From: Gammaproteobacteria bacterium
GTDB lineage: Bacteria; Pseudomonadota; Gammaproteobacteria; Ga0077554; Ga007554
Reading direction: 5' to 3'
Assembly: GCA_005240065.1 (NCBI GenBank)
Contig: SBBG01000060.1
Coordinates: 1-38,638, forward strand
DNA length: 38,638 bases
Under the pieces are notes generated by a model. The model saw only the letters and a program-made list of their open reading frames with translations, did no database searches and had not been told where the DNA came from. The first letter of the stretch is position 1; each line of letters starts with the position of its first letter. Positions 13,321 through 37,894 of the stretch are shown here, in pieces. The translations under genes were made by a program, and so were the position numbers.

Positions 13321-13322
13321 TC

Positions 13323-14342: not shown

Positions 14343-15394
14343 TGCCCTCGAACCTTGGGAGCCGAGGAGTTAGCATCTGTATTCCAACCTATAATGGCCA
14401 AGAGTATCTCCAGGAATGCCTGGACAGCATTCTGATTCAAACATATCCCGACACCGAAATACTTATCGTCGACGACTGCTCTACCGACGATACCGTGCGA
14501 ATCGTGGAAGAGTACGCCATCCGCGACAACAGGATTCGCCTGATAAAAAACGAACAAAACCTGGGGCTGGTCGGCAACTGGAATCGCTGCATCGAACTGG
14601 CGCAAGGCGAATGGATCAAATTTGTTTTCCAGGACGACCTGATCGCGCCGACATGCTTGGAAAAGATGCTGTCAGCAGCGACCGCTCAAGAAAAGCCCAT
14701 CGTATTTTGCCGCCGTGAATTCATTTTCGACAGCACAACGGACGTAGAGACACGATTCCATTACAATGCCATTCCACTTATCGATCAACTTTCCTCGGGA
14801 GAAGAAAATATTCCATCCCAACAGGCTAGGGCAATGGTGCTACAGGAAACAAGAAATTTTTTTGGCGAACCGACTTCCGTTCTGATTCATCGATCAGTCT
14901 TTCGCAGATTCGGCGCTTTCAACCCACACCTGGCACAGCTCTGCGACCTCGAATATTGGATTCGCGTGACCGTGAATACAGGCCTTGCATACGTCCCCGA
15001 GAGCCTGGCACAGTTCCGATTTCACCCGGCATCGACGAGCGCCGCGAACAGGGCGGCGAAACTTTTTCGCAGCGATCTGCTCGACCGTTTGGTGTTGTTA
15101 CATGAATACGCATACAACCCGCTGTATGCGCCTCTGCGCACAGCGGCGCAAAAACTTAATCCCCCCCGGAATTTCGCACGGGAATTCGCCAGACGAGCCG
15201 ATTGGGCAAAAGCCGTGGCACTTGCCGCCTGTACGGACAAGGCACGACCCGATACAGGGCCAATCTCCGAATGGAATCAACTGGCGATGGTTTATCCAAG
15301 ATTGAATTGGACGATACACCAAACCCCTCACAAGGTTCGACGGTGGCTGGACAGAACCGTCCTGTGGCGTTTTCGTTCGCACGAAAAAAGCTGA
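14342..15394 (+). CDS. Family 2 glycosyltransferase
   Basis: VSICIPTYNGQEYLQECLDSILIQTYPDTEILIVDDCSTDDT...FVFQDD. Confidence 0.92.
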   Translation: MPSNLGSRGVSICIPTYNGQEYLQECLDSILIQTYPDTEILIVDDCSTDDTVRIVEEYAIRDNRIRLIKNEQNLGLVGNWNRCIELAQGEWIKFVFQDDLIAPTCLEKMLSAATAQEKPIVFCRREFIFDSTTDVETRFHYNAIPLIDQLSSGEENIPSQQARAMVLQETRNFFGEPTSVLIHRSVFRRFGAFNPHLAQLCDLEYWIRVTVNTGLAYVPESLAQFRFHPASTSAANRAAKLFRSDLLDRLVLLHEYAYNPLYAPLRTAAQKLNPPRNFAREFARRADWAKAVALAACTDKARPDTGPISEWNQLAMVYPRLNWTIHQTPHKVRRWLDRTVLWRFRSHEKS

Positions 15395-15411
15395 AAAAGA
15401 AATCGTCTATT

Positions 15412-16449
15412 ATGTCCCTGAATCAACATTCCGTCGATTCGCCCTTGGTGGTGATCATCGTGCTGAACTGGAACGGCAAGAATGACACGCTGGAATGCCT
15501 GGAATCGCTCGAAACGATGGATTATCCGAACTATCGGATAATCGCCGTGGATAACGGTTCGACAGACGGCTCTGTGACTGCCATTCGGGCACGTTTTCCG
15601 CAAATTACCGTTCTTGAGACTGGCGTCAACCTGGGTTTCGCCGAGGGTAACAATGTAGGAATTCGTTATGCACTGAACCAGCGTGCCGACTATGTTTTTT
15701 TATTGAATAACGATACGGTGGCCGATCGGGGACTGATTTCCACGCTCGTTGAAGCGGCCAAGGCATATCCTGCGGGCGGCGTATTCGGCCCGAAGATCTA
15801 TTACCACTCCGACCCATCCCGGATATGGTATGCCGGGGGCGTCTGGAATGAAGAGAAAAAATATTTCGAACAACAAGGCGACGGCGAAATAGATAGTGGA
15901 CAATACGAAACGCCAGGAAGCACGGAATTCATCATTGGCTGCGCGATGTTCATACCAGCAAAAATTTTCGATAAGATCGATATGCTCGAGCCCAGGTTTT
16001 TCCTCAACTACGAAGAAATAGATTTCTGCACGCGAATCAAGGCAGCGGGCCTGGAAAACATCTATGTTCCACGCGCGAAGTTATGGCATAAGATTTCGGC
16101 CTCGTTCGGCGGCGAAGACTCGCCGCTCAAGATATACTTCACTTTTCGCAACAGATTACTGTGGGCTGAAAGAAACCTGCCCTGGCATCGCGCCATCGGC
16201 ATCCACTTGTCGATTTACGGTGGTTTCAAGCGAAGATTCATGATCCCCATCTCACACGGTATGGCAGGGCAATCGCTCTTGAAGGGGGGGCTTTGGGCGC
16301 TTGTCAGCGCATTTCGCAGTCCCGGCAATCAGGCATGGCTCAAGGGGATCCGAGATTATTGGCTAAGACGCTTTGGAAACTGTCCGAAAGATGTGTGGCG
16401 CCTCCAGCAACGATGGAAGGCGGCCAGGGCAGAGAGAGTCAACGAATGA
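15412..16449 (+). CDS. Family 2 glycosyltransferase (rhamnosyltransferase-like)
   Basis: VVIIVLNWNGKNDTLECLESLETMDYPNYRIIAVDNGSTDGS...LNLGFAEGNNVGIRYAL...FLLNNDT; start set at MSLNQHS. Confidence 0.92.
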   Translation: MSLNQHSVDSPLVVIIVLNWNGKNDTLECLESLETMDYPNYRIIAVDNGSTDGSVTAIRARFPQITVLETGVNLGFAEGNNVGIRYALNQRADYVFLLNNDTVADRGLISTLVEAAKAYPAGGVFGPKIYYHSDPSRIWYAGGVWNEEKKYFEQQGDGEIDSGQYETPGSTEFIIGCAMFIPAKIFDKIDMLEPRFFLNYEEIDFCTRIKAAGLENIYVPRAKLWHKISASFGGEDSPLKIYFTFRNRLLWAERNLPWHRAIGIHLSIYGGFKRRFMIPISHGMAGQSLLKGGLWALVSAFRSPGNQAWLKGIRDYWLRRFGNCPKDVWRLQQRWKAARAERVNE

Positions 16450-18431
16450 ATATCGGTTCATCCATCACCCAAAATCTCGACTTCAATCTCGATGATCTGA
16501 TGGCACTACCAGCGGCTTTGGAAACAGAGAGCAGGGATCGGGATCTCGGCCGCCGCAGAGTGGAATCTCGCATCGAATCCGAAATTGTCATCGATGAGTT
16601 TCCAGGACACGCAATACAGTGCGCTTTCGTGAGGGCTTCCGCCAAGGCATCGCCATTGCTCACACGCTTCCAGGCGGCGGGAGAATATGCCATAACCACC
16701 TGCCACGCCGGAGGTTGGCTGCTCATACCTTCCGCAACGGACAGCGTTGCCTACTGGTTGCCATTGCAACCGATGATGCGTGAATTGGATGATGCCCTGC
16801 ATGTGGTGTCAGAGAAACCAGCCCAAATCGACGGCGTGGATTTATCCCGCGCTCGGATGGCAATGCAAATCACTCTTCCGGCTTACACAGACCTGGACTG
16901 GTCATTCTGGAAATTCCCCAGAAAAGATGAAGCGTTCATCGGCGAACTGACCGCATTTTCCCCGTTGGAAACGCAACCACATTTCCTGTGGGGCTCGCAC
17001 ACACTTTATAAACAACCATCAGACATTTACCAACATCTGATCCATGGCCATGTCTATGAAAATCGCTACGCCTGGCCATACAAGCGAAAGATCTGTTCCG
17101 AAAACGACGCTCATGCGCTGTATGTGACGCTATGTGGCTTGGAGCGCGCCACAGGTAAACGCATCTATGGACTACTGAAAACCCAGTTGCTACTGTCGGT
17201 GTTGTCACGTCAGAGTGAAGACGGCGGGTTCCGCCATGGCGAGTGGACGGATGGCATGGAATCGCACTACCGCCTGCATTGCAGCGCCATGCACATGATG
17301 ATGGACGCGCTGGCGGAGCGGGAAAATCCGGCGGTGCGCACGGCGCTGGAGAGGGCGGCGGCTTTTATCGCGCGGCAGACGGATGATACCAATCTGGGGC
17401 GCTGGTTCATTCATGACGAGCTGGAACACCGGTCCGAGACGATGAACAAGGGACCCTTCGGCTGGATACCGGGTGGCGTCATGGGCAAGTCCGAATCCAA
17501 CATGCTGGTACTGAACACCCATCTGGATGCCACCATCGCGCTGGATCGATACCGTGAACTGACGGGGGACGGGCAATATGCCGGACTGGTGCGCTCCGCG
17601 TGCGACGCGGCCAAAAAAGTACTCGCCTTGCGTCCGGCTGAGTGGCTTTATGACGCGCTGTTCCGTGCGATCGGACTGACGTTGCGGCCCACGGCGGTGG
17701 CGGAAAGATTGCCGCTGCCGGCGCGCGCGCTCAAACGCATCGCCTGGAAATATCTCGTGCCGAGGCTGCCGGCCATCAAGACCCGCTGGCCGCGGCTGGT
17801 GATGCCCGGCGGCTATATCGACCGGGAAATTTCGCTCAAGGTCTGGGCGCATGACTATCACAGCATCAACGTCATGGATCTGCTGCGCTTTCTGCGGCGC
17901 TTTCCGGACGAGGCGCTGTGGGAGATCGCCGAGGCGGCGCTGCGCTTCGGTCAGGAAAGCGGCTTGCGCGAACGATGGCTGGAAATCAAGGGCAGGGAGT
18001 ATGCCGCCGGCTTTTGGGCGGAGGCGCTGTATCATGCTTGCGCTTTGCGTCCCGACCTGCGCTATCGCGCCTGGCTGGCCGACACCATGTTGCTGCTGGC
18101 GGACCGGAACATCGGTTTGCCGCCATCGTTGTTGGGCGCGAATGCAGAGGCGATGCCGCCATGCGAACAGGCACCCTGCCCCATGCCGGTGGATGGACGG
18201 CTGCGCGTGGCCAATCTGAGCCGGCGCGACCACCTCGAAGTGCTGGTGGTCAATCCCGCGCCGGAGCCCGTACCGCTCGGTTTCGGACGTAACTGGGATG
18301 TCGCGCTCGTATGGTCGGATGCAGAAGGCGCCCGGCACGGCGGCCAGACTCCCACCGTGGTGCCGGCGCGCGGCTGGGTGTTGGGACACGCCCGGCGTGA
18401 AGCGCACTCCACCAACGCAGGAACCAGGTGA
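16446..18431 (+). CDS. Uncharacterised 661-aa protein of the polysaccharide locus; possible alpha/alpha-toroid carbohydrate-active fold
   Basis: ATG overlaps previous stop (ATGA). Central region DGGFRHGEWTDGMESHYRLHCSAMHMMMDALAE...AAFIARQTDD...THLDATIALDRYRELTGD resembles helical-toroid repeats. Family not recognised. Confidence 0.8.
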   Translation: MNIGSSITQNLDFNLDDLMALPAALETESRDRDLGRRRVESRIESEIVIDEFPGHAIQCAFVRASAKASPLLTRFQAAGEYAITTCHAGGWLLIPSATDSVAYWLPLQPMMRELDDALHVVSEKPAQIDGVDLSRARMAMQITLPAYTDLDWSFWKFPRKDEAFIGELTAFSPLETQPHFLWGSHTLYKQPSDIYQHLIHGHVYENRYAWPYKRKICSENDAHALYVTLCGLERATGKRIYGLLKTQLLLSVLSRQSEDGGFRHGEWTDGMESHYRLHCSAMHMMMDALAERENPAVRTALERAAAFIARQTDDTNLGRWFIHDELEHRSETMNKGPFGWIPGGVMGKSESNMLVLNTHLDATIALDRYRELTGDGQYAGLVRSACDAAKKVLALRPAEWLYDALFRAIGLTLRPTAVAERLPLPARALKRIAWKYLVPRLPAIKTRWPRLVMPGGYIDREISLKVWAHDYHSINVMDLLRFLRRFPDEALWEIAEAALRFGQESGLRERWLEIKGREYAAGFWAEALYHACALRPDLRYRAWLADTMLLLADRNIGLPPSLLGANAEAMPPCEQAPCPMPVDGRLRVANLSRRDHLEVLVVNPAPEPVPLGFGRNWDVALVWSDAEGARHGGQTPTVVPARGWVLGHARREAHSTNAGTR

Positions 18432-19600
18432 TGCGCATCGGCATCGTAGCGCCCGAGTTTCCTCCCGACATTGGCGGGATGCAAACCTATGCCTTCGAGT
18501 TTTCCCGCGAATTGGCGAACCGGGGCTACGAGGTCCATGTGTTCACGAAACCCCACCCGGAAGGTGAGATCAGGATTCCCGGCATCCGGGTCATTCCCGT
18601 TCTGGCCGGGTGGCGCCGGCGCGACCGGCGTATCCTGACTGAATATCACATCGATGTATGGCATGTCATGAATGCCGCCTATGGCTGGCTTGCGCTGGAA
18701 ACGTCGCCAGTGATCATCTCGGTGCATGGCAATGATTTCTTACGGCCCTATATTCCGCTGGAACGTCTCGGCCTCAGTCACTGGCCAGGTTTGTGGCGAT
18801 CCGGGAAGTGGGTGCCCGCCATCGAGAGCACGCTGGCGCGCTGGCTTACTCTTCGCACCGTGCGCAAGGCATTGCCAAAGGCAACTCATATCATCGCCAA
18901 CAGCTGCTATACTGAAAAGGTATTCCTTGAACGCTATCCCGCGTGCCGGGGAAAAACGTCCGCCGGCATGGTGGGAGTCTCACAGGACTATCTGGAAGTC
19001 GCATATAACCTGCCCCATCGGCAAAAGACGTCGCTGGTGACGGTCGCCCGCCTTGCAGAGCCACGCAAGAATGTCGATCTGGTGTTGCGCGCGCTCGCCG
19101 GATTGAAAGAAAAACACGACTTCACCTATACGATCGTCGGTGACGGCGGGCTGCGCCCCGCACTGGAATCGCTCAGCACGGAGTTGGGCCTCTCCGGCCG
19201 AGTGCGCTTTACGGGTTTCGTCTCCCATGACGAGCTGAAAATCATCCTTGGCCGCAGTGATCTTTTCATTCTGGTATCATCCATCATCCCCGGCAGCCAC
19301 GAAGGCTTTGGCATTGCTTACCTGGAAGCGAACGCCTGCGGTGTGCCGGTGCTGGCGGCGCGCCTGGCCGGAGCGGTGGAGGCGGTAAGCGAGGGGGTAA
19401 GCGGAATGTTCGTCGACGAGATCACGGTTCCCGCCGTTGGCATGGCATTGGATCGATTTCTGAGCGGACAAGCCGCCTTCGAGGCATCCTCCTGCCGTGA
19501 TTTCGCGAGACAGTTCACCTGGAAAAAGGTCGTTGATCATGCGATCGGATCGTATCAATCTCAACCGCACGCAACCGGATTGGCGGACCGGGTACCGTGA
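18431..19600 (+). CDS. Family 4 glycosyltransferase
   Basis: MRIGIVAPEFPPDIGGMQTYAFEFSRELANRGYEVHVFT; SLVTVARLAEPRKNVDLVLRAL; GSHEGFGIAYLEANACGVPVLAAR. Confidence 0.94.
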   Translation: MRIGIVAPEFPPDIGGMQTYAFEFSRELANRGYEVHVFTKPHPEGEIRIPGIRVIPVLAGWRRRDRRILTEYHIDVWHVMNAAYGWLALETSPVIISVHGNDFLRPYIPLERLGLSHWPGLWRSGKWVPAIESTLARWLTLRTVRKALPKATHIIANSCYTEKVFLERYPACRGKTSAGMVGVSQDYLEVAYNLPHRQKTSLVTVARLAEPRKNVDLVLRALAGLKEKHDFTYTIVGDGGLRPALESLSTELGLSGRVRFTGFVSHDELKIILGRSDLFILVSSIIPGSHEGFGIAYLEANACGVPVLAARLAGAVEAVSEGVSGMFVDEITVPAVGMALDRFLSGQAAFEASSCRDFARQFTWKKVVDHAIGSYQSQPHATGLADRVP

Positions 19601-20535
19601 ATCATCGCGCGCTGATCAGCGTCATCATGCCCTGCTACAACGCTGTTTCCTTCGTTGAGGAATCGGTGCGATGCGTACTGGATCAGACCCACGGCAATGT
19701 CGAATTGCTAGTGGTCGACGATGGCTCCACAGATGGCTCGCAAGAAATATTACGGCAACTGGGAGCGCGCTATCCCGAGCGTATCAGGATATATCATCAG
19801 GAGAACAAAGGACCTTATCCCGCGCGCAATCTGGCCCTCAAGCATGCCAGAGGCGAGTATGCCGCGTTTCTGGATGCCGATGATTTCTGGCATCAGGACT
19901 GCTTGGCGAAACTTTATGACGCCATGATGACCAGCCATGCCGATCTCGCCTACTGTGGTTGGCAGAATGTCGGCGAAGGCGCGCCGGGCACGCAACCCCA
20001 TGTCCCTCCGAAGTATGAAGAGGATGATCCGGTAACCCGATTCCTGAAAGGATGCCCATGGCCTATCCATGCCGCATTGATCCGGCGTGAAATCATTGAT
20101 GCGGTGAACGGCTTTTCCGAGCGCTGCTTCAGCGCCATGGACTACGACCTCTGGCTACGGATACTGGCAGTTACGCGCAAGATGATACGAGTGCCTGAGG
20201 TTCTTTCCTTTTACCGGTGGCATGATAAAGGCCAGATATCGTCGATAAAATGGAAACAGGTGCTGAATGCCTGGCAGGTGAGGCAAGACTTCGTTCGCAA
20301 CAACCCGGCACTGGTTTCGCACATCCCGCCCGATACCCTGCGGACGCTCAGACATCAATGTCTGCTCGATGCGGGATACAAGGCCTATTGGAAGCGTGAT
20401 CTGGCATCTTCTCAAAAACTGTTCCGGCAAGCGTTGAAAGCAGGTTATTGGCAACTCAAGGATTTGAAATATCTTCTCCCTGCCTTGCTGGCGGAAAAAA
20501 TCTATCGATCGCTGATCCTCCATGCCGACAAATAA
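19597..20535 (+). CDS. Family 2 glycosyltransferase
   Basis: LISVIMPCYNAVSFVEESVRCVLDQTHGNVELLVVDDGSTDGSQEIL...AAFLDADDFW. Confidence 0.93.
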   Translation: MNHRALISVIMPCYNAVSFVEESVRCVLDQTHGNVELLVVDDGSTDGSQEILRQLGARYPERIRIYHQENKGPYPARNLALKHARGEYAAFLDADDFWHQDCLAKLYDAMMTSHADLAYCGWQNVGEGAPGTQPHVPPKYEEDDPVTRFLKGCPWPIHAALIRREIIDAVNGFSERCFSAMDYDLWLRILAVTRKMIRVPEVLSFYRWHDKGQISSIKWKQVLNAWQVRQDFVRNNPALVSHIPPDTLRTLRHQCLLDAGYKAYWKRDLASSQKLFRQALKAGYWQLKDLKYLLPALLAEKIYRSLILHADK

Positions 20536-21355
20536 TCTCACGCCATCAGATGCCGCCATGAACGCCGGCCGCATTCCGGTACTCATGTATCACCGCGTCG
20601 GCGCAGCGGTGAACGACTGGGAGCGCAAGTATTGTATCGCACCGGACAGTTTCGCCGCCCACATGCGTATCCTGCACGAGCAAGGCATGCGGCCGTGCGC
20701 CATCGAAGATTTCGTGGCATGGTTGTCCGGCCGGAAATCGTTGGGTGACAAAACATTCCTGCTGACATTCGATGACGGTTTTTATGGCGTCTATGAACAT
20801 GCGATGCCGGTGCTCGCCCGACTCGGCTGGCCGGCCACGGTATTTCTGGTCAGCTCGCTCACTGGCAAGAGAGACGTGTGGTGTGAAAAGGAAAACCCTT
20901 CCGGCCACACCTATCCCCTGCTCGGCCGCAACCACATCGAGGAGATGCGCAAGCATGGCTTCTCTTTCCATTCCCATTCGCGCACCCATGCCGATCTGAC
21001 AAAGACCACGGATCAGGATTTGAAGGGCGAGCTTTACGGAGCGAAGGCGGAGCTTGAAGATTTGTTGGGCACGGATGTCCCGTATCTCGCCTATCCCTAC
21101 GGACGCCATGACGAACGCGTGCTTGCCATGACCCAAGAAGCCGGCTACCACGCCGCCTTTTCGGTGCAACCCGGCTTCAACCGGCCGGGCCTCGATCCTT
21201 ACCGGATTCGCCGCCTGGATGTGTTCGGCACCGACACGCCCGCGCAATTACGCCGCAAAGTCATGTTGGGCAGCAACGATGGCTCATTGCAACATTCCCT
21301 CCGCTACTATGCCGGCCAGCTCGCGGCAAAGCTCGGGATTGGTAACCAGTCATGA
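20522..21355 (+). CDS. Polysaccharide deacetylase (NodB homology domain)
   Basis: IPVLMYHRVG; FLLTFDDGFYGVYEHAMPVL; FHSHSRTHADLT; YLAYPYGRHDERV. Confidence 0.93.
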   Translation: MPTNNLTPSDAAMNAGRIPVLMYHRVGAAVNDWERKYCIAPDSFAAHMRILHEQGMRPCAIEDFVAWLSGRKSLGDKTFLLTFDDGFYGVYEHAMPVLARLGWPATVFLVSSLTGKRDVWCEKENPSGHTYPLLGRNHIEEMRKHGFSFHSHSRTHADLTKTTDQDLKGELYGAKAELEDLLGTDVPYLAYPYGRHDERVLAMTQEAGYHAAFSVQPGFNRPGLDPYRIRRLDVFGTDTPAQLRRKVMLGSNDGSLQHSLRYYAGQLAAKLGIGNQS

Positions 21356-22293
21356 CCAACCCTGCCGCTATGGAAAATACACCGCATCCGGCCATCCGCT
21401 ACACGGTGGCGCTGTGCACCCATAACCACGTCGAAAGATTAAAGCGCACCTTGGCCGATCTGGGCAAGCTCGAACCGCCATGGGAGCCATGGGAATTGCT
21501 CATCATCGACAACGCCAGTTCAGATGGCACAGCCGAGCTTTTGAATGCCACAGACTGGCAAGGGCTACCGGCACGCGTAGTACGGGAAGAGAAGCTGGGG
21601 TTATCCAACGCCAGAAACCGCGCCATTGACGAGGCGCGGGGCGAATACATCCTCTTCATGGATGACGACGAAACGCCCGCTCCCGAATGGCTGACGAGCT
21701 ACGAGCATGCCATTCAGAATCATTGGCCGGATGCTCTCGGCGGCAGAATAGAAGTAATGTTCGAGGACGGCGACCGCCCGGTATGGTTGCAGGATGAGCT
21801 GCTGGGATTCCTCGGCAAACTCGATCACGGCCCCGAATCGCGCCGCCTCACCGAACCTGGCACGCCGATCTTCGGCGGCAACTTCGCCTTCAAGACCCGT
21901 CTGTTCCAGCGCATCGGGAACTTCGATGCCGGACTGGGACGCAAGGGTAGCGACAACACCGGCGGCGAAGACACCGAAATTTACCGCCGCATGATCGAGC
22001 TGGGATGCGATGTCCGCTGGGTTCCCAATGCGGTGATCCATCACCGGATACAGGCCAACAAACTCAGGCGTGGCTATTTCATTGATCTTCATTATCGACA
22101 GGGACGGATGGAAGGCATGAGAAAACGTGGCGGAAAACCCAGAATCCCTCCAGCTTATCTGATTCCCCAGCTATGGCGTGCCATTCTTGCCGTTATTCAA
22201 CAGTGGCGGAGTGGCGGCGGCAATACGATCTTGCGCAAGCAAATGAACGTGGCCTATTTTTGGGGATACATTTCCGGGTGGGCATTCGGGTAA
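21352..22293 (+). CDS. Family 2 glycosyltransferase
   Basis: YTVALCTHNHVERLKRTLADLGKLEPPWEPWELLIIDNASSDGTAELL...ILFMDDDETPAPEWL...GGNFAFKTRLF. Confidence 0.93.
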   Translation: MTNPAAMENTPHPAIRYTVALCTHNHVERLKRTLADLGKLEPPWEPWELLIIDNASSDGTAELLNATDWQGLPARVVREEKLGLSNARNRAIDEARGEYILFMDDDETPAPEWLTSYEHAIQNHWPDALGGRIEVMFEDGDRPVWLQDELLGFLGKLDHGPESRRLTEPGTPIFGGNFAFKTRLFQRIGNFDAGLGRKGSDNTGGEDTEIYRRMIELGCDVRWVPNAVIHHRIQANKLRRGYFIDLHYRQGRMEGMRKRGGKPRIPPAYLIPQLWRAILAVIQQWRSGGGNTILRKQMNVAYFWGYISGWAFG

Positions 22294-22296
22294 TAC

Positions 22297-25200
22297 ATGA
22301 ATCTCACCATTCTGATCTGCACGCATAACCGCTCGCGCCTGCTGGAGCAAACTCTCGACTCTCTCAATCGGGCGGTGCGCCCGGGTGATTGCCGCATCGA
22401 GATACTGGTGGTCGCCAACGCCTGCACGGACGATACCGTCGATTTCTTGCATCAGTACCGGCAAAATACGTCAGCGAAAAATCTTCTGCCTATTGGATGG
22501 CTGGAAGAAAAAACACCCGGAAAATCGCACGCGCTGAATCGTGCCATTCCGTTGCTTACCGGCGATGTCGTCGCCATGGTGGATGACGATCATCGCGTCG
22601 ATCCCGGCTTTTTCACCAACATTTGCAATGCGATCAAAACCTATCCGCAGGCTACCATGTATTGCGGCCGCATCCTGCCGGACTGGAATGGCAAGGAACC
22701 AGGATGGGTGCATGACCAAGGCCCTTACCGCATCTATCCCCTGCCCGTGCCCCGCTATGACTATGGCGATCAACCACAACCGGTTATAGCCGGTGGCCAA
22801 TTACCCTTGCCCGGTGGAGGAAATTTATTCCTGAAACGCGAAGTATTCGAGCGGATCGGTGGTTTTTCCACAGAACTCGGCCCGCACGGACATGATCTCG
22901 GCGGCGGCGAGGACAGCGATTTCGTATTGCGCGCGCTGACAGCGGGTGAAAAACTCCGGTACGTACCCAACGTGGTGCAACACCACTATGTGGATCTGGA
23001 GCGATTCAGCCTGCGCTATATCCTGCAAAAGAGCTATCAGCGCTCGCGCTCCGTTGCTCGCGTCCATAGCCAAGGCCGGTCGATCCCGCGCTACATGTGG
23101 CGCAAACTCGCGGAATACGCAGGGGGCGCCACGCTTTCGCTGAGCTGGGCGCGCACCCGTTTCTATCTCGTGCGATTGGCGGCCACACTGGGCGAGATGC
23201 GCGGGATGGCGGCAAAACCCTTTTCCGATGCGACCGGACAGACACCCTCCGCCTCCGGCCAAGTTGCGCCGGGGATTGCTCCTGTCGCATTGGCGTTTGG
23301 CATGGCGACAGCCTCCGCGATTGTGTCGTCACCGCCGCAGGCGCTATCGCAAGGCGCGTTGTCCGCCACCGGGGCCGCCACCCTCTTTACCTCGGCCCTG
23401 CTGCTGAAATCGATCATCGGTTTTTCACGGACGGGGCCCGCGCTGAAGGAAGAAATCCAGAAACATTACTCCCGTTATTCCCTGTTCGCCTTCGGGCGTC
23501 TCGCCGCCTGGGCGCTGTTGATCAGCGGACTGATGGCGGTGGCGGGCGTTGCCGTCTATTCATCCCTGGGCCGGGCGGCGGCTATCGAATTCACCATCAC
23601 AGGCGCGGTGATCGCCGCCTTCTGCGGCATCGGCGCCGTCACGGCGTTACAGTTCTGCCGCCACCTGCTCTATCTGCCCGCCACCATCGCCGCCTCCTCC
23701 CATTACCGGTTGAGCCGCTTGTATCCGTTGTGGCGACGGCTGTCGCCGGCACGACTACAGATAGCGCACTGGACACTCGTTCTACTGGCGGCGCTTGCGG
23801 TCGTCGCGGATCTGGCGGGCATGGTGGGCCAGGGACAGTGGGCTCGGCTGGCGATGTGGGCGATGCTCGCAAGCGCGGCGGCGGTGATCGTGAGGACGCT
23901 GTCGCCCGGAGATGAAAGCCCGCCGGTGAGCGATGCCGCCGTAACCGATCCGGCCCGGCCCAACATCGTCATGATCGGATCGGACACGTTGCGCGCCGAT
24001 CGCGTGGGAAACGGTCAGTATCACCGCGACTTGACCCCTCATCTGAACGCACTCGCCCGGCGCGGCACGCATTTTACCCACTGCTATGTGCCCTGCGCAC
24101 GCACCGCGCCCAGCCTGATCTCCCTGCTCACCGGCACATGGCCGCACACTCATGGCATACGCGACAACTTCGCCGGTGACGATCAGCTCGATTTGCCCGT
24201 AGCCGTGCTCCCCGCCTTGCTGACCAAAGCCGGTTACACGACAGCGGCGATCGGCGATTGGGCGGCCGCCGACATGGGCAAGTTCAATCTCGGCTTCGAG
24301 CAACGCGATCTACCCGAAGATCAATGGAACATCAAATTCCTCATCCGCCAGGGACCGAAGGATCTGCGGCTGTTTCTTTCCCTTTTCACCCACAACGGTT
24401 TCGGCAAGCGTTTTCTGCCCGAGATGTATTATCTTGGCGGCATCCCGCTGACGCGCGAAATCGGCCGCGATGCGCGGGCGATGATCGGCCGCCTTGTCGC
24501 CGCGTGCCGCCCGTTTTTCCTCAACATATTCATGGCTACCACGCACCCGCCATTCGGCTCGGAGTACCCCTATTACACCCTATACTCCGAACCACATTAT
24601 GACGGCGAATCGAAGTTCGTGATGGCGCGGCTCACCGATCCATTCGAGATCATCCGCCGGCAGGGTGACAGCAAAAAGGAATTCGACCTCGACCAGATCA
24701 TCGACCTTTATGACGGTTGCGTGAAAAGTTTCGACGACGAAGTCGCCAGGATCGTCGAGCACATCGAAAAACTAGGCATCGCCGACAATACCATCATCGT
24801 CATTTACAGCGATCACGGCATGGAGTTTTTCGAGCATGACACCTGGGGTCAGGGCAATAGCGTCCGTGGAGATCAGAGCGCACGCGTTCCATTGATCATC
24901 GTGGATCCGCGCAAACCACCAGGCGGCGTGGTGTCGAATATCACGCGCACCGTCGACATCGCGCCCACCCTGCTCAATCTGCTTGGCATGGCGCAACCAC
25001 AGCGCATGGACGGCGTGTCGCTCGCACCTTATATGGAAAACCGTGAGGCAAACCTTGATTTGGCAGCGTGCAATGAAACCGGGATCTGGTTGACCACTTT
25101 GCCGGGAACACCGCCGGATCATTTGCGTTATCCCGACCTGCCGGAGTTGCTCGAAATACCGGACAAAGGCAGCGGCACGCTGGCGATCAAGAGGGAATAC

Positions 25201-25467
25201 CGGGACATCATCGTCAAGGCCAAAGACCGGATGATCTGTAGCGGGAGGTGGAAACTCACCTATCAGCCGACACACAACGGCGGAATCTACACGCTGTTCG
25301 ATCTTGTGGATGACCCTGAATGCCGCTCGGACGCAAGCCATCTCTATCCGGATGTCATGGTGGAGTTACGACACAAACTCAGGGCGTGGATGGCGCCTGA
25401 CCTGGCTGTTGCAACTCAGGGGGAGGACAAAAGCGGCACCAAGGGTTTGCCGGAGAGCCTATCGTAG
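22297..25467 (+). CDS. Fusion: N-terminal GT2 glycosyltransferase, multi-TM linker, C-terminal alkaline-phosphatase/sulfatase-superfamily domain
   Basis: MNLTILICTHNRSRLLEQTLDSLNR...VAMVDDDHRVDPGFF (GT2); hydrophobic stretches about aa 330-540; PNIVMIGSDTLRADRVG...CARTAPSLISLLTGTWPHTHGI...IVIYSDHGMEFFEHDTWGQGNSVRGDQSARVPLII. Confidence 0.92.
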   Translation: MNLTILICTHNRSRLLEQTLDSLNRAVRPGDCRIEILVVANACTDDTVDFLHQYRQNTSAKNLLPIGWLEEKTPGKSHALNRAIPLLTGDVVAMVDDDHRVDPGFFTNICNAIKTYPQATMYCGRILPDWNGKEPGWVHDQGPYRIYPLPVPRYDYGDQPQPVIAGGQLPLPGGGNLFLKREVFERIGGFSTELGPHGHDLGGGEDSDFVLRALTAGEKLRYVPNVVQHHYVDLERFSLRYILQKSYQRSRSVARVHSQGRSIPRYMWRKLAEYAGGATLSLSWARTRFYLVRLAATLGEMRGMAAKPFSDATGQTPSASGQVAPGIAPVALAFGMATASAIVSSPPQALSQGALSATGAATLFTSALLLKSIIGFSRTGPALKEEIQKHYSRYSLFAFGRLAAWALLISGLMAVAGVAVYSSLGRAAAIEFTITGAVIAAFCGIGAVTALQFCRHLLYLPATIAASSHYRLSRLYPLWRRLSPARLQIAHWTLVLLAALAVVADLAGMVGQGQWARLAMWAMLASAAAVIVRTLSPGDESPPVSDAAVTDPARPNIVMIGSDTLRADRVGNGQYHRDLTPHLNALARRGTHFTHCYVPCARTAPSLISLLTGTWPHTHGIRDNFAGDDQLDLPVAVLPALLTKAGYTTAAIGDWAAADMGKFNLGFEQRDLPEDQWNIKFLIRQGPKDLRLFLSLFTHNGFGKRFLPEMYYLGGIPLTREIGRDARAMIGRLVAACRPFFLNIFMATTHPPFGSEYPYYTLYSEPHYDGESKFVMARLTDPFEIIRRQGDSKKEFDLDQIIDLYDGCVKSFDDEVARIVEHIEKLGIADNTIIVIYSDHGMEFFEHDTWGQGNSVRGDQSARVPLIIVDPRKPPGGVVSNITRTVDIAPTLLNLLGMAQPQRMDGVSLAPYMENREANLDLAACNETGIWLTTLPGTPPDHLRYPDLPELLEIPDKGSGTLAIKREYRDIIVKAKDRMICSGRWKLTYQPTHNGGIYTLFDLVDDPECRSDASHLYPDVMVELRHKLRAWMAPDLAVATQGEDKSGTKGLPESLS

Positions 25468-30154: not shown

Positions 30155-31189
30155 ATGACAATATTCCACCTCCCCCCCGAATGGGCGCCGCAAAGCGCCG
30201 TGATGCTCACTTGGCCGCACGAACATGGCGATTGGCGCGACAAACTGTCCCTGGTCGAACCGGTGTTCGTCGAGATTGCGCGTCACATCAGCCTGCACGA
30301 ACGTGTGATCATCGCCTGCTGGGATGAAACGCATCTTGCCCATGTAAAAATGCTCCTGAGAGATTCCGGCGCGGCCCTCGACAAGATTACACTCCATGCC
30401 GCGCCCTCGAATGACACCTGGACGCGCGACCACGGGCCTATCACGGTGTTAGACAATGCCGCGCCGCGTCTGCTCGACTTCACTTTCAACGGCTGGGGCC
30501 GCAAGTTCGATGCCGAACTGGACAATCAATTAACGGGGCGGCTGCATGCCGCGGGCGCATTCGGCAAAACGCCGTTGCAAACCATCGATGTGGTGCTGGA
30601 AGGCGGCAGCATCGAAGTGGATGGCGCGGGCACGCTGTTGACCACGCGCCGCTGTCTAATGTCGCCGATGCGCAATCCACATCTGACCCAGCCGCAAATC
30701 GAGACACTGCTGGGCGAACTGTTCGGTGTCGAGCGTTTTCTGTGGCTGGACAACGGCTATCTCGCCGGAGACGATACCGACAGCCACATCGACACGCTGG
30801 CACGCCTGTGCAACCGGCACACCATCGCCTATGTCGCGTGCGACGACCCTGCCGATGAGCACTATCAGGAACTGAAGTCAATGGAAGAAGAACTCAGACG
30901 CTTCCGCACCCCCGATGGCGCCCCATACCATCTGGCCGCCCTGCCCTGGCCACAGCCCAAATATGACGAAGAGGGGCATCGCCTGCCCGCCACCTATGCC
31001 AACTTCCTGATCGTCAATGGCGCGGTGCTGGTCCCCACTTATGCCGACCCGGCCGACGAAACCGCCTTGACCCGTATCAGGGAATGTTTTCCGGATCGTG
31101 AAGTGATCGGCGTTCCATGCCTGCCACTGATCCTGCAACACGGCAGTCTGCACTGCGTCACCATGCAATTACCCGCCGGAGTCCTGTGA
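30155..31189 (+). CDS. aguA: Agmatine deiminase
   Basis: LPPEWAPQSAVMLTWPHEHGDWRD; NDTWTRDHGPI; VLEGGSIEVDGAGTLLTT; GDDTDSHIDTLARL; C-terminal HCVTMQLP. Confidence 0.95.
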   Translation: MTIFHLPPEWAPQSAVMLTWPHEHGDWRDKLSLVEPVFVEIARHISLHERVIIACWDETHLAHVKMLLRDSGAALDKITLHAAPSNDTWTRDHGPITVLDNAAPRLLDFTFNGWGRKFDAELDNQLTGRLHAAGAFGKTPLQTIDVVLEGGSIEVDGAGTLLTTRRCLMSPMRNPHLTQPQIETLLGELFGVERFLWLDNGYLAGDDTDSHIDTLARLCNRHTIAYVACDDPADEHYQELKSMEEELRRFRTPDGAPYHLAALPWPQPKYDEEGHRLPATYANFLIVNGAVLVPTYADPADETALTRIRECFPDREVIGVPCLPLILQHGSLHCVTMQLPAGVL

Positions 31190-31191
31190 CC

Positions 31192-32079
31192 ATGAAAAAA
31201 CTGACAGTCGGACTGATTCAGCATGACTGCGGCAACGACCGTGCGGCAAATCTCGACCGCACCATTGCCGGCATTCGCAAAGCGGCGGCACAAGGTGCGC
31301 GACTCATGCTGCTGCAAGAGTTGCATACCGGGATTTACTTTTGCCAGACCGAAGATACCAGCTATTTCGACCTGGCGGAAACTATCCCTGGACCGAGCAC
31401 GGAACAACTGGGCCAAGTAGCCGCGGAGTTGCAGGTGGTGATCGTTGCCTCGCTGTTCGAGCGCCGCGCGGCAGGGCTCTATCATAACACTGCGGTGGTG
31501 ATCGAAACCGATGGCCGCATCACGGGCAAATACCGCAAGATGCACATCCCGGATGATCCGGGCTTCTACGAAAAATTTTATTTCACGCCGGGCGACCTGG
31601 GTTTCAATCCCATCGATACTTCGGTGGGACGCTTGGGCGTGCTGGTGTGCTGGGACCAGTGGTTCCCCGAGGCCGCCCGGCTCATGGCACTGGCCGGCGC
31701 CGATTTGCTGCTCTACCCCACCGCGATCGGCTGGAATCCCGGCGATGACGATGCGGAAAGAGCGCGGCAGCGCGACGCCTGGATCACCATCCAGCGCGCC
31801 CATGCCATCGCCAACGGCCTGCCGGTGCTGGTCTGCAACCGCACCGGCTTCGAGGCCGACCCGTCCGGCCACAGCGCCGGGATAGATTTCTGGGGATCGA
31901 GCTTCGTCGCCGGACCGCAGGGCGAAATGCTCGTCATGGCGGAGTTTGACATCCCCGCCCCCCTGATTGCCGAGGTCGATCTCGGGCGTGGCGAACAGGT
32001 GCGGCGCATCTGGCCCTATCTGCGCGACCGGCGCATCGACGCCTACGAAGAGTTGATGCGGCGCTATCGGGATGGGTGA
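31192..32079 (+). CDS. aguB: N-carbamoylputrescine amidase (nitrilase superfamily)
   Basis: MKKLTVGLIQHDCGNDRAANLDRTIAGIRKAA...LQELHTGIYFCQTED...GRITGKYRKMHIPDDPGFYEKFYFTPGD...GVLVCWDQWFPEAARLMAL; immediately follows aguA. Confidence 0.96.
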   Translation: MKKLTVGLIQHDCGNDRAANLDRTIAGIRKAAAQGARLMLLQELHTGIYFCQTEDTSYFDLAETIPGPSTEQLGQVAAELQVVIVASLFERRAAGLYHNTAVVIETDGRITGKYRKMHIPDDPGFYEKFYFTPGDLGFNPIDTSVGRLGVLVCWDQWFPEAARLMALAGADLLLYPTAIGWNPGDDDAERARQRDAWITIQRAHAIANGLPVLVCNRTGFEADPSGHSAGIDFWGSSFVAGPQGEMLVMAEFDIPAPLIAEVDLGRGEQVRRIWPYLRDRRIDAYEELMRRYRDG

Positions 32080-33263
32080 TCGCGCCGCACGCAGTCCCAT
32101 GCATCACGCGCAATCAACAATGCTTCATTGACCGGAACGACATACGCCGCCATCTTTGACGAAGGGGGCGAGATGCACGCTTCCTTTCCAATCGCCCTCG
32201 CATTGGCAGCCTCATCCACCGCCAAGCCGCACCACTCCTGGCCTGCACAGATCCGCTCCCGGATAACCGGCGCATGTTCGCCGATGCCGCCGCCGAAGAC
32301 AATGGCATCGGCGCCGCCAAGCACGGCGAGATAGGCTCCCAGGTATTTGCGGGCACGGTGGCAGAAGGCATCGATGGCGCGTTTTGCACCGGCGTGACCT
32401 TGAGCCCCCAGCATTATCAGCTCGCGCATGTCCGCACTGATCCCGGATATTCCCAGCAACCCCGCGCGCTGATTCAATGCTTCGCGCAAGGGTTCGACAC
32501 CCAGCTGTCCGGCCAGATGGAGCAGTGCGCCCGGGTCGATATCGCCACAGCGAGTCGCCATGATCAAGCCTTCCAGCGGTGTGCAGCCCATGCTGGTCTC
32601 CACCGGCACGCCGCCGCGGATCGCGGTCATCGAGCAGCCTTGCCCCAGTTGCAGGGTGATGATCCGGCTGGCGCCGATGCCGGCACCGCTGATCTCATGA
32701 TAGCGCTGACAAAGCCACCGATGAGCCAGGCCGTGGAATCCATAACGCCGGATGCCGTGGTTTCGCGTCCATTCGTCCGGCAAGGCATAACGGCGCGCAT
32801 GATCGGGAAGATCGCGGAAAAAGGCGGTATCGAACACCGCCGCCATCGGCACGGGAGGCTTGAAAAAACTCTCGCAGGCGTGGATGACCTGGAGTGCGAG
32901 GGGATTATGCAAAGGCGCGAGCGCGCTCAAGGATTCGATCGCCGCCACCGCCGCTGGATCGATCAACACCGGGCCGGTGAAAACATCTCCACCGTGCACG
33001 ATGCGATGGCCAATGGCCGCCAAGCCCTTCGTCAAGCCCCGGTCTTGCAGCCAGTTCAAAACCCATACCGCAGCGGCATGATGATCGACGATACTGCCGC
33101 GCACTTCACCGCGCTGCCCATCGGATAGCCAGGTACAGCAGGCTTGCCCGCCGAACGCGGTGACCGTCCCGTGCGCGCACGGCGTTGGGTCACTTGCGGC
33201 CGTTGCCTCGAAAAGCTGCCATTTGAGCGAGGAGCTGCCGCTGTTGAAAACCAGGATGAACAT
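32064..33263 (-). CDS. ackA: Acetate kinase
   Basis: MFILVFNSGSSSLKWQLFEA; GHRIVHGGDVFTGPVLID; VFDTAFFRDLPDHARRYALP; RRYGFHGLAHRWL; FGGGIGEHAPVIRERIC. Confidence 0.96.
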   Translation of the reverse strand: MFILVFNSGSSSLKWQLFEATAASDPTPCAHGTVTAFGGQACCTWLSDGQRGEVRGSIVDHHAAAVWVLNWLQDRGLTKGLAAIGHRIVHGGDVFTGPVLIDPAAVAAIESLSALAPLHNPLALQVIHACESFFKPPVPMAAVFDTAFFRDLPDHARRYALPDEWTRNHGIRRYGFHGLAHRWLCQRYHEISGAGIGASRIITLQLGQGCSMTAIRGGVPVETSMGCTPLEGLIMATRCGDIDPGALLHLAGQLGVEPLREALNQRAGLLGISGISADMRELIMLGAQGHAGAKRAIDAFCHRARKYLGAYLAVLGGADAIVFGGGIGEHAPVIRERICAGQEWCGLAVDEAANARAIGKEACISPPSSKMAAYVVPVNEALLIARDAWDCVRRDHPSR

Positions 33264-33269
33264 GCGAAA

Positions 33270-34961
33270 TTAGCGAATATACGCTTCGGTGGCGTAACGC
33301 CGCATCATGCGGTGGCTGTTGAAAAAGGATGCGCTTTTGCATATCGCGCCCTTCATCACCGCGATCCAGGCCGGGCGATCCATATAGTAGAGCGGCAGTA
33401 CCACCTGAGCCAGTTTGATATAAAGGGAATCCTGGTCCTCGCCATTGGCCGACTCCATGGCATTGCCTATCGCCCATCCCGTCACACCCTCGATGCAGCC
33501 TTCCACCCACCATCCATCGAGCACGCTCAATTGCGGCACGCCATTGAAGGCGGCCTTCATGCCGCTGGTGCCCGAAGCTTCCATGGGTCGCAATGGCGTG
33601 TTCAGCCAGACGTCGGAACCGGACACCATGGCGAGCGCCGTCTCCATGTCATAATTGGGAAGATAGACAATGCGGATGGTGTCGGCAAGCTCATGTATGT
33701 GGCCATGCAGGGCTTCGATCAATCTCTTTCCACCTTCATCGCGCGGATGAGCCTTGCCTGCCAGCACGATCTGGAAAGAACGCTCCTGGGCGATGGTTTT
33801 CAGGCGCGCCAAATCGGCAAACAACAAATCGGGACGCTTATAGGCGGTCATGCGCCGGGCAAAGCCGAGAATCGGAATCTTCGGGTGCAATTCCACCCCC
33901 GTCAGCTTTTTTACCCGCTCGATCAAGTCATTCTTGGCTTGGGTATGGGTCTCCCAGATCGCCGCATCCGGTATTCTGTCGGCGCGCACCAGAACCGCGG
34001 GCTCATGACACCAGCCCGGTAAATGCGTATCGTAAAGCTTGATGAACGCCGGGTGACTCCAGGTGAAAGGATGCACTCCGTTGGTGACGGCGTGCACACG
34101 GTATCCTGGATAAAGTTTTTTGGAGACCTCGGCGTGGCTCTTGGCGACACCGTTGACATACTCGCTGAGACTGAGGGCGAGACTCGTCATGTTGAGGTTT
34201 TCACTTCCCGCCAGCGTTTTGAGTGTCGGCAAGGAAATGAAATCCCCCAGTACGCGCTGCACCATGTCATAAGGAAATTTGTCATGCCCCGCCTCCACCG
34301 GCGTGTGCGTGGTGAAATTGCACAGCTCCCTCACGCGCGGTATATCGTAGGGCGACTCGCCGGGCCGGACATCCTCCGGCGGATAGGCGTAACGCCGCAG
34401 CAACTCGATCACCAGCAAGGCGGAATGGCCTTCGTTCATGTGATACTGGCGAATCTCGAACCCCAACGCCTGGAGCATGCGCGCGCCGCCGATCCCCAGA
34501 ACGATCTCCTGCTTGAGCCGGTAGGCCGCATCACCGCCATAGAGATAATGGGTGATCTTGCGATCGTCGTCATGATTCAAGGGCAGATCGGTATCCAGCA
34601 GAATGACGGGTACTCGGCCATTCATGTGGCCCTGCAGGATATACAGCCACCCGCTCACCCAGACCTCGCGCCCCTCGATCCTCATGGCGATACCGGCGCT
34701 CAGGCGTGTCGCAAAGCGGCTGGGATCCCAATACTCCGGATGCTCGACCTGCCGCCCCTGGGCATCAATTTCCTGGCGGAAATATCCGGCGCGGCTAACC
34801 AGGGTTACCGCCACCAGCGGCAACTCCAGATCGGCGCTAGAGCGCACCGTGTCCCCGGCCAGCACCCCAAGACCGCCACTGTAAGTGGGAATCTCGTTGC
34901 GCAAGGCGATCTCCATGGAGAAATATGCGATGCGCGGTTCATGGATGAACTCATCCAGCAT
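33270..34961 (-). CDS. glgP: Alpha-glucan (glycogen) phosphorylase, GT35, short form
   Basis: RIAYFSMEIALRNEIPTYSGGLGVLAGDTVRSSADLELPLVAVTL; HMNEGHSALL; FARRMTAYKRPDLLF; EASGTSGMKAAFNGVPQLSVLDGWW. Confidence 0.95.
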   Translation of the reverse strand: MLDEFIHEPRIAYFSMEIALRNEIPTYSGGLGVLAGDTVRSSADLELPLVAVTLVSRAGYFRQEIDAQGRQVEHPEYWDPSRFATRLSAGIAMRIEGREVWVSGWLYILQGHMNGRVPVILLDTDLPLNHDDDRKITHYLYGGDAAYRLKQEIVLGIGGARMLQALGFEIRQYHMNEGHSALLVIELLRRYAYPPEDVRPGESPYDIPRVRELCNFTTHTPVEAGHDKFPYDMVQRVLGDFISLPTLKTLAGSENLNMTSLALSLSEYVNGVAKSHAEVSKKLYPGYRVHAVTNGVHPFTWSHPAFIKLYDTHLPGWCHEPAVLVRADRIPDAAIWETHTQAKNDLIERVKKLTGVELHPKIPILGFARRMTAYKRPDLLFADLARLKTIAQERSFQIVLAGKAHPRDEGGKRLIEALHGHIHELADTIRIVYLPNYDMETALAMVSGSDVWLNTPLRPMEASGTSGMKAAFNGVPQLSVLDGWWVEGCIEGVTGWAIGNAMESANGEDQDSLYIKLAQVVLPLYYMDRPAWIAVMKGAICKSASFFNSHRMMRRYATEAYIR

Positions 34962-35045: not shown

Positions 35046-35354
35046 TCACTTCGACTGACTTACTATATAGTCCACTGCGGCCTTCACATCCGCATCGCTC
35101 AAATCCACCTTGCCGCCTTTGGGTGGCATGGCGCCCTTGCCCTTGAGGGTGTTGTTGTACAGGCTGTCCATGCCGCTCTTGATGAGCGGCGCCCAGCGCG
35201 CCTTGTCCCCTGTCTTCGGCGCTCCCATGGCGCCCGTGGCATGGCACATGGCGCAGGCCGAGGAATACACCGCTTTGCCATCCGCGGCATTGGCGTGGCC
35301 CGCCAGCGACAAGACCAACACTGCCGCCGCAACACCTGCAAAGCTGTTTCTCAT
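35046..35354 (-). CDS. Class I cytochrome c (cytochrome c5-like), secreted
   Basis: Signal peptide MRNSFAGVAAAVLVLSLAGHANA; SACAMCHATGAMGAPKTGDKARW; KGAMPPKGGKVDLSDADVKAAVDYIV. Confidence 0.94.
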   Translation of the reverse strand: MRNSFAGVAAAVLVLSLAGHANAADGKAVYSSACAMCHATGAMGAPKTGDKARWAPLIKSGMDSLYNNTLKGKGAMPPKGGKVDLSDADVKAAVDYIVSQSK

Positions 35355-35391
35355 AACATTCTCCTTTCCGGTTGAAATTGGGTTCTGAAAA

Positions 35392-35397
35392 AGTATA
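35392..35397 (-). promoter_or_regulatory. Predicted -10 element of the cytochrome c gene
   Basis: TATACT on minus strand, 29.5 bp from the FNR-box centre. Confidence 0.55.
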
Positions 35398-35419
35398 CGC
35401 CATTGCCTCTGAGATAACT

Positions 35420-35433
35420 TTGATCTATATCAA
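35420..35433. promoter_or_regulatory. FNR/Anr-type binding site TTGATCTATATCAA
   Basis: Perfect match to consensus TTGAT-N4-ATCAA between divergent genes 35046..35354(-) and 35489..37894(+). Confidence 0.85.
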
Positions 35434-35455
35434 ATCAGCGCTGGTCTGATTGGCA

Positions 35456-35461
35456 TATACT
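35456..35461 (+). promoter_or_regulatory. Predicted -10 element of ppsA
   Basis: TATACT, 29.5 bp from the FNR-box centre. Confidence 0.55.
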
Positions 35462-35488: not shown

Positions 35489-37894
35489 ATGTCCAACTTC
35501 ATCCGCTGGTTTGAAGACATCACCCTTCAGGATATACCCCTGGTCGGCGGCAAGAACGCCTCGCTGGGCGAAATGTACCGCGAGTTGAGTTCCCAGGGAG
35601 TGAAAATCCCGAACGGCTTTGCTGTTACCGCCCCCGGTTACTGGCGCATGCTCGATGACGCCGGGCTGCGCGACAAGCTGCGCGCCTTGATGACGGGCAT
35701 CGACAAAAACAATGTTTCCGATCTGGCGCGACGCGGCCACGCGGCGCGGGATCTGATCCGCGGCGCCGGTCTGCCCGCCGGGCTGTGGGCGGAAATCGAG
35801 GCGGCCTACACGCGCCTGTGTACCGAGTATGGCGAACACACCGATGTCGCGGTGCGTTCCTCCGCCACGGCGGAAGACCTGCCCACGGCCTCGTTCGCCG
35901 GTCAGCATGAAAGCTATCTCAATATTTCCGGCACGGCGGCGCTGCGCGAGGCCTGCATCAAATGTTTCGCCAGCCTGTTCACCGACCGCGCCATCGCCTA
36001 CCGCATCGACCACGGCTTCGATCACATGAAAATCGCGCTGTCGATCGGCGTGCAGAAAATGGTGCGCGCGGACCTTGCCGCCAGCGGCGTGATTTTCACG
36101 CTCGATACCGAAACGGGTTTCCGCAACGTGGTCTTCATCACCGCCAGCTACGGCCTGGGCGAAAACATCGTCCAGGGCACCGTCGACCCGGACGAGCTGT
36201 ATGTCTTCAAGCCGACGCTGCGCCAGGGATACAAGCCGATCATCCGCAGACGATTGGGCGCCAAACAACTGCGCATGGTCTATGTCGCAGGCGAGGCGGG
36301 CGGCACGACCCGCAATATCCCCGTCGGCGAAGACGAACGCCGCCGCTTTTGCATCAGCAACGATGAAGCCCTGCGCCTTGCCGATTACGCCATCAAAATA
36401 GAAGACCACTACAGCCATAAGGCGGGCGCCGACCAACCGATGGACATCGAGTGGGCCAAGGACGGCATCAGCGGTGAACTGTTCATCGTGCAGGCGCGCC
36501 CGGAAACAGTGCAGGTTCACCGCCGCGCCGATCTATTGGAAAACCATATACTGGAAGAATACGGCAAAACGCTCGTTCAGGGCAAGAGCGTTGGTCAAAA
36601 AATCGGCGCGGGCAAGGCGCGTGTGATCGCCGATCTCGAACATCTGCGTGACTTTCAACCCGGCGAAGTGCTGGTGGCCGATACCACCACACCCGATTGG
36701 GAGCCGGTGATGAAACAGGCCGCCGCCATCGTCACCAATCGCGGCGGGCGCACCTGCCATGCCGCCATCGTCGCCCGCGAATTGGGAATACCCGCCGTGG
36801 TGGGCACGGCTGACGCGACCCGTCTGATTACGTCCGGCCAGGACATCACCGTCTCCTGCGCCGAAGGTGAAGCCGGCCATGTCTACGCGGGCATGGCGAA
36901 ATACCGAGTGGAGCGCCTGGCCTTGCGCGACCTTCCCAGACCGCGCACCAGGATCATGATGAATCTCGGCGATCCCGACCAAGCCTTTGCCCTCTCTTTC
37001 ATTCCGAACGATGGCGTGGGACTGGCCCGGCTCGAATTCATCATCAACAACAGCATCAAGATTCACCCCATGGCCTTGATCCACCCCGAGCGCATCACCG
37101 AACGCCGCGCACGCCGGACCATCGACGCCATGACAGCAGGCTATCAGGACAAGACCGAATATTTCGTTTCGCGGCTGGCCGAAGGCGTAGCCACCCTCGC
37201 CGCGGCGTTCCACCCCAAACCGGTGATCGTGCGCCTTTCGGATTTCAAATCGAACGAATACGCCAGACTGCTGGGAGGGACGGCCTTCGAACCCAAGGAA
37301 GAAAATCCCATGCTGGGCTTTCGCGGCGCAGCGCGCTACACCCACCCCACCTATGCGGAAGGATTCGCCCTTGAATGCCGCGCTCTCAAGCGTGTGCGTG
37401 ATGACATGGGCTTGACCAACGTCCGCCTCATGGTGCCATTCTGCCGGCGCGTGGAGGAAGCCGCGCGTGTTCTTGCCGAACTTGAAAAACACGGCCTGCA
37501 GCGCGGCGTGAACGGCCTTGAAATCCATGTGATGTGCGAGATACCCAACAACGTATTACAAATCGACGCCTTCGCCAAACTGTTCGATGGCTTCTCCATC
37601 GGTTCGAATGACCTCACCCAACTGGTGTTGGGTGTGGACCGTGACTCCGCGCTGGTAGCCTTCGAGTTCGACGAACGCGACCCCGGCGTGCTGGAAATGC
37701 TGCGCCTCACCGTGGAAGGTGCACGCCGCAACCAGCGTCACTCGGGCATCTGCGGCCAGGCGCCCTCGGATTACCCAGAGATCGCCGAATACCTGGTACG
37801 CCTGGGCATCGATTCGATGTCGCTCAATCCGGATGCCGTGCTCAAGACGACGCTCAAGGTGTTGGAGATTGAGGGACGGATGACGAATCGATGA
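35489..37894 (+). CDS. ppsA: Phosphoenolpyruvate synthase
   Basis: VGGKNASLGEMYREL; RSSATAEDLPTASFAGQHESYLNISG; TNRGGRTCHAAIVARELGIPAVVGT; GSNDLTQLVLGVDRDS; GICGQAPSDYPE. Confidence 0.97.
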   Translation: MSNFIRWFEDITLQDIPLVGGKNASLGEMYRELSSQGVKIPNGFAVTAPGYWRMLDDAGLRDKLRALMTGIDKNNVSDLARRGHAARDLIRGAGLPAGLWAEIEAAYTRLCTEYGEHTDVAVRSSATAEDLPTASFAGQHESYLNISGTAALREACIKCFASLFTDRAIAYRIDHGFDHMKIALSIGVQKMVRADLAASGVIFTLDTETGFRNVVFITASYGLGENIVQGTVDPDELYVFKPTLRQGYKPIIRRRLGAKQLRMVYVAGEAGGTTRNIPVGEDERRRFCISNDEALRLADYAIKIEDHYSHKAGADQPMDIEWAKDGISGELFIVQARPETVQVHRRADLLENHILEEYGKTLVQGKSVGQKIGAGKARVIADLEHLRDFQPGEVLVADTTTPDWEPVMKQAAAIVTNRGGRTCHAAIVARELGIPAVVGTADATRLITSGQDITVSCAEGEAGHVYAGMAKYRVERLALRDLPRPRTRIMMNLGDPDQAFALSFIPNDGVGLARLEFIINNSIKIHPMALIHPERITERRARRTIDAMTAGYQDKTEYFVSRLAEGVATLAAAFHPKPVIVRLSDFKSNEYARLLGGTAFEPKEENPMLGFRGAARYTHPTYAEGFALECRALKRVRDDMGLTNVRLMVPFCRRVEEAARVLAELEKHGLQRGVNGLEIHVMCEIPNNVLQIDAFAKLFDGFSIGSNDLTQLVLGVDRDSALVAFEFDERDPGVLEMLRLTVEGARRNQRHSGICGQAPSDYPEIAEYLVRLGIDSMSLNPDAVLKTTLKVLEIEGRMTNR

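Follow-up and report, generated by a model that had tools for sequence, protein, structure and literature searches.

A perfect FNR box centred symmetrically between divergent predicted promoters of a cytochrome c gene and ppsA in a gammaproteobacterium

In a 38,638-nucleotide stretch of a gammaproteobacterial genome (contig SBBG01000060.1 of assembly GCA_005240065.1, a draft in 243 contigs; the whole stretch is called the window below), the intergenic region between a c-type cytochrome gene and ppsA is probably a two-fold symmetric, FNR-dependent bidirectional promoter. The original prediction proposed that one FNR dimer could activate transcription from class II positions in both directions, and this proved to be the best-supported reading: the genome encodes Fnr, 22 bp is its preferred distance between FNR box and −10 hexamer, the cytochrome half of the arrangement is kept in three relatives, and a degenerate FNR-type site at that distance stands before the ppsA gene of another genome (locus L092). 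Such a promoter would place PEP synthase under the same oxygen-sensing site as a respiratory carrier and the genes for glycogen breakdown and acetate production. Being two-fold symmetric, it is also a clean system in which to ask whether two polymerases can work simultaneously from a single activator dimer.

The box, TTGATCTATATCAA at positions 35420 to 35433, matches TTGAT-N4-ATCAA with 0 mismatches, and the window contains no second TTGA-N6-TCAA palindrome. It lies between two divergent genes, with 65 bp from its edge to the start of the cytochrome gene and 55 bp to the start of ppsA. On either side a TATACT hexamer stands 22 bp from the box, to the base: at 35392 to 35397 on the minus strand for the cytochrome promoter and at 35456 to 35461 on the plus strand for the ppsA promoter. 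The distance from the box centre to the first T of TATACT is 29.5 bp on each strand. The coordinates first claimed for the box and both hexamers all check, as does the perfect consensus match. When transcription start sites are placed 7 bp past each −10, at 35385 on the minus strand and 35468 on the plus strand, the box centre falls at −41.5 for both predicted starts, the value near which it had been proposed to sit. The −35 regions are poor on both sides (AAGTTA and AATCAG at a 17-bp spacer), and a sigma-70 scan of the shared intergenic region called no promoter.

With the centre at −41.5 on both sides and no good −35 at either promoter, recruitment of the class II type would be expected both ways. 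When oxygen falls, Fnr would gain its iron-sulphur cluster, dimerise and bind the palindrome, and the bound dimer would recruit RNA polymerase in either direction. The leftward output would be the cytochrome c–glgP–ackA operon and the rightward output ppsA.

An exclusive either/or switch, in which two polymerases compete for one dimer and just one of the promoters is active at any moment on a given chromosome, is a refinement of the bidirectional promoter rather than an alternative to it. RNA polymerase covers about −55 to +20 of a promoter. With 83 bp between the predicted starts, the two footprints would be expected, from this geometry, to overlap across the box. Against exclusivity, both directions are active at the comparable nirS–nosR2 region of Dinoroseobacter shibae, but these directions were assayed in separate reporter fusions, so that system does not decide the question (PMC5398030). 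We regard the exclusive form as possible, though we lean against it.

The proposed bidirectional promoter is flanked on the left by a gene for a single-haem c-type cytochrome of 102 amino acids (35046 to 35354, minus strand), which has a signal peptide, one CxxCH motif and matches to Pfam Cytochrome_CBB3 (1e-18) and Cytochrom_C (1e-9). A ribosome-binding site, AAAGGAGA, precedes it at 35360 to 35367 on the same strand. The protein had been described as cytochrome c5-like; the c-type assignment stood, and the analysis gave no showing of c5 membership. It is followed on the minus strand by glgP, encoding alpha-glucan phosphorylase (33270 to 34961; TIGR02094 above cut-off), and ackA, encoding acetate kinase (32064 to 33263; TIGR00016 above cut-off), the probable second and third genes of the operon. 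On the right lies ppsA (35489 to 37894, plus strand), which encodes a PEP synthase (pyruvate, water dikinase) of 801 amino acids that scores above cut-off for both TIGR01418 and NF005057.

The gap between the cytochrome gene and glgP is 84 bp and that between glgP and ackA is 6 bp. We looked between the cytochrome gene and glgP for a terminator, in the form of a stem with a T run behind it on that strand, and found none; the fold of the 96-nt spacer was unremarkable (z −1.28). The cytochrome gene, glgP and ackA read as one probable operon, and the tight spacing and the conserved gene order both speak for the original suggestion that glgP-ackA might lie downstream in the cytochrome operon. A palindromic GGGTGCGT repeat was also suspected in the spacer and at other places, but the pattern searched for gave no support for it.

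Elsewhere in the window, positions 30155 to 32079 hold agmatine deiminase-like and then N-carbamoylputrescine amidase-like genes in overlapping frames, both below their NCBIfam equivalog cut-offs. A polysaccharide cluster at 12037 to 25467 includes a Wzt-type ABC transporter, several glycosyltransferases, a polysaccharide deacetylase and a 1056-amino-acid fusion of a family 2 glycosyltransferase with a sulfatase-type domain. A reading frame of 712 amino acids in this cluster (16293 to 18431) has no Pfam match.

Shuffled versions of the window contain a mean of 0.58 TTGA-N6-TCAA matches, so a palindrome with this core can be expected by chance in roughly every second window and carries little weight by itself. 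More telling is the distance to the hexamers. At the local base composition, a hexamer matching TATAAT in at least five of six positions occurs at one fixed place with a chance of about 0.01, and on both sides with a chance of about 1e-4. The genome contains 21 perfect FNR boxes, compared with 0 matches to the reversed pattern. A −10 hexamer of at least 5/6 stands at 22 bp in 8 of the 42 flanks of these boxes (6 without the two that belong to the cytochrome/ppsA site), whereas any other spacing from 8 to 44 bp is found in at most 1 of the 42. Class II FNR promoters with exactly this spacing are therefore in general use in this genome, and the preference for 22 bp strongly supports the existence of a class II FNR regulon.

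Two other boxes of the genome also stand between divergent genes, with −10s that are nearly symmetric. The box at C170:30267-30280 (L125) separates a NuoF-like gene from a phosphoketolase gene, with −10s at 22 and 23 bp, and that at C170:24727-24740 (L124) separates a CBS-domain gene from a phosphoribosyltransferase gene, with −10s at 21 and 22 bp. Further neighbors of FNR boxes encode ribose-phosphate pyrophosphokinase, a di-haem cytochrome c peroxidase, an archaeal-type FBPase and a GGDEF protein. In this genome, and also in the one with the closest ppsA relative, a small DksA/TraR-like gene has a perfect FNR box next to it (L156 1216; L118 1556).

The phosphoketolase bears on what the leftward operon might do. 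Phosphoketolase makes acetyl-phosphate, which AckA converts to acetate and ATP. In the proposed scheme GlgP would degrade glycogen, AckA would form acetate and ATP from acetyl-phosphate, the cytochrome would carry electrons and PEP synthase, acting in the direction of PEP as it is named for or possibly in reverse, would adjust the pyruvate/PEP node. GlgP, AckA and a phosphoketolase gene adjoining an FNR box together suggest fermentation of glycogen to acetate at low oxygen. Here the start sites, the oxygen response and the direction of carbon flow are all inferred from sequence.

We then counted symmetric sites across the class, with −10s written as TANNNT. Among 274 genomes, 13 sites had a −10 at 22 bp on both sides (12 without the window's own, which was known beforehand), compared with 1 site at a control spacing of 19 bp on both sides. 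As a fairer control, we adopted a count in which one side was fixed at 22 bp while the opposite side could take any distance from 15 to 29 bp. Off-peak spacings gave a mean of 5.5 hits per spacing over both orientations, which corresponds to about 2.75 expected at 22/22, in contrast to the 13 found. About one-fifth of the symmetric sites in the class may be due to chance, and some of the sites are without a gene on one side.

Several of these sites in other genomes lie between gene pairs of a low-oxygen type, with the box at about position 1529 of the locus (880 in L135). The pairs encode SCP2- and U32-family proteins (L138), a tetrapyrrole methylase and a cytochrome cd1 nitrite reductase (L134), a DsbD-like protein and Usp (L135), and a globin and GcvH (L131); cytochrome bd subunit I also flanks one symmetric site. 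The class-wide count can serve directly as a catalogue of further symmetric sites, several of them between typical low-oxygen genes. One could go further and propose that FNR promoters with exactly −41.5 both ways are a recurrent, selected module in the class, in which the shared dimer would enforce a fixed ratio or mutual exclusion of two low-oxygen genes, rather than a by-product of palindromes between divergent genes. We offer this generalization tentatively and consider it rather doubtful.

For comparison with relatives we used a sample of 8 genomes from the family (and order). Three genomes of the same family and another genus (G004, G006 and G007) encode orthologues of the cytochrome that are 77 to 80% identical. 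Upstream of each orthologous gene lies the identical 14-mer box, with a −10 at exactly 22 bp (TATCTT in G004, TATTCT in G006 and TATTCT in G007). The cytochrome gene is followed by glgP in all three, and then by ackA in G004 and G006, where enough of the gene order was recovered. In a genome of another genus (G003; L157 3545-4009), the cytochrome gene has no FNR box and the glgP before ackA seems shortened or broken, with only its ends matching.

The other side of the conserved box differs in these relatives: G004, G006 and G007 have no −10 there at 22 bp and no divergent ppsA beside it, and the upstream gene, read in two of them, is neither ppsA nor divergent. None of the 75 named ppsA-relative loci and none of the five family relatives has a box-plus-cytochrome arrangement ahead of ppsA. 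The cytochrome gene is absent from every other ppsA locus found, and the five same-family ppsA genes (55 to 59% identical) have no FNR box. The closest ppsA relative found, that of L092, is 76% identical. It is preceded by TTGAGCTATGTCAA, which has 2 mismatches to the FNR consensus and a perfect TTGA-N6-TCAA core, with TACAAT exactly 22 bp on; this site was missed when at most 1 mismatch was allowed and was found by rescanning with the TTGA-N6-TCAA core. The L092 genome contains 8 perfect FNR boxes. The site supports an FNR-type control of ppsA that would be independent of the cytochrome, as a single case from about 80 loci.

The divergent cytochrome/ppsA pairing was thus seen in one genome only, with each half matched in a different lineage. 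The idea that relatives might keep the box and both −10s at their spacing held for the cytochrome half, in three genomes; the ppsA half is matched in another genome, but the two together were found in no second one. This distribution suggests that the box first belonged to the cytochrome operon and gained a divergent client, or else that the client was lost in the other genus.

The same distribution invites a narrower reading, in which only cytochrome–glgP–ackA is activated by FNR and the TATACT facing ppsA is there by coincidence or belongs to an FNR-independent promoter. The three relatives, which keep the box and the cytochrome-side −10 with nothing at 22 bp opposite, speak for it, and it would fit the fraction of symmetric sites in the class that could be chance. 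However, the ppsA-side hexamer matches in five of six positions at the genome's preferred spacing, an event with a chance of about 0.01, and is not accompanied by a −35. The predicted start lies 21 nt before the ppsA ATG (35489), and in L092 the closest ppsA relative is preceded by an FNR-type site with the same spacing. We therefore consider the narrower reading unlikely.

Activation of both genes by FNR presupposes the regulator, and the original prediction had counted the lack of an FNR homologue in the genome as evidence against it. We found a bona fide fnr gene on contig C78 (L001 1006-1743). Its product has the cluster cysteines C19, C22, C28 and C120 and the recognition helix ETISR, matches solved FNR structures with an E-value of 4e-53, and scores 237.1 bits against the NCBIfam Fnr profile, above the cut-off of 228. 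Just downstream of fnr lies a second exactly symmetric site (C78:52240-52309; L001 2304-2373), between genes for hsp20 and a D-2-hydroxyacid dehydrogenase; its −10 hexamers at 22 bp are TATAAT and TATGCT.

The box might instead be used by another protein of the CRP/FNR family, such as a Dnr-like nitric-oxide sensor. The genome encodes three further HTH proteins of the CRP/FNR type, one of which (L002) has an E-x2-SR helix without the cluster cysteines and could bind sites similar to the FNR box; moreover, the D. shibae site is driven mainly by DnrD. However, among the regulators read, only Fnr has the four cluster cysteines, and it scores above the Fnr cut-off. In addition, a symmetric box adjoins the fnr gene itself, and TTGAT-N4-ATCAA is the FNR form of the site. 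We consider use by another regulator quite improbable. Hardly credible is a functionless chance arrangement of box and hexamers, which could appeal to the palindrome frequency in shuffled windows but runs against the spacing statistics of the genome, the conservation in relatives and the second symmetric site in the same genome.

Collectively, these comparisons favor an FNR-dependent promoter firing in both directions, for which there is precedent. In D. shibae, a single Fnr/Dnr site lies centrally between nirS and nosR2, at −39.5 and −41.5; lacZ fusions showed regulator-dependent activity in either direction, and nirS expression was abolished when the site was mutated (PMC5398030). The hemA3–dnrE region of the same organism likewise has a bidirectional Fnr/Dnr site (PMC5398030). 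There the box is TTAAC-N4-GTCAA, with DnrD as main driver and FnrL as co-regulator of denitrification genes (PMC5398030). A single FNR-family palindrome between divergent genes is common to nirS–nosR2 and the cytochrome/ppsA site. In contrast, the site described here, known from its sequence, combines a perfect FNR box with a predicted position of exactly −41.5 in each direction and adjoins genes of carbon metabolism and a cytochrome.

In Escherichia coli, 19 of the 23 promoters that are directly activated by FNR and have a known start carry the site at −41.5 ± 4 (PMC3688515); the position is the same, but those are single promoters, whereas the cytochrome/ppsA box would serve two. E. coli CRP, a related activator rather than FNR itself, can activate divergent promoters from one target (El-Robh and Busby 2002, as cited in PMC3105977), and 11 single-site CRP cases of this kind are listed (PMC3105977). 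The divergent E. coli operons ubiT and ubiUV are both activated by Fnr without oxygen; we rejected them as a shared-site precedent because they have two separate Fnr sites, one per direction (PMC10470549). In contrast, the SCP2- and U32-family genes at L138, which belong to the families of UbiT and UbiU/V, have a single symmetric box in common. The cytochrome/ppsA site is thus a well-supported candidate for a new example of an architecture already known from D. shibae, and what sets it apart is its exact symmetry and the pair of genes that it would control.
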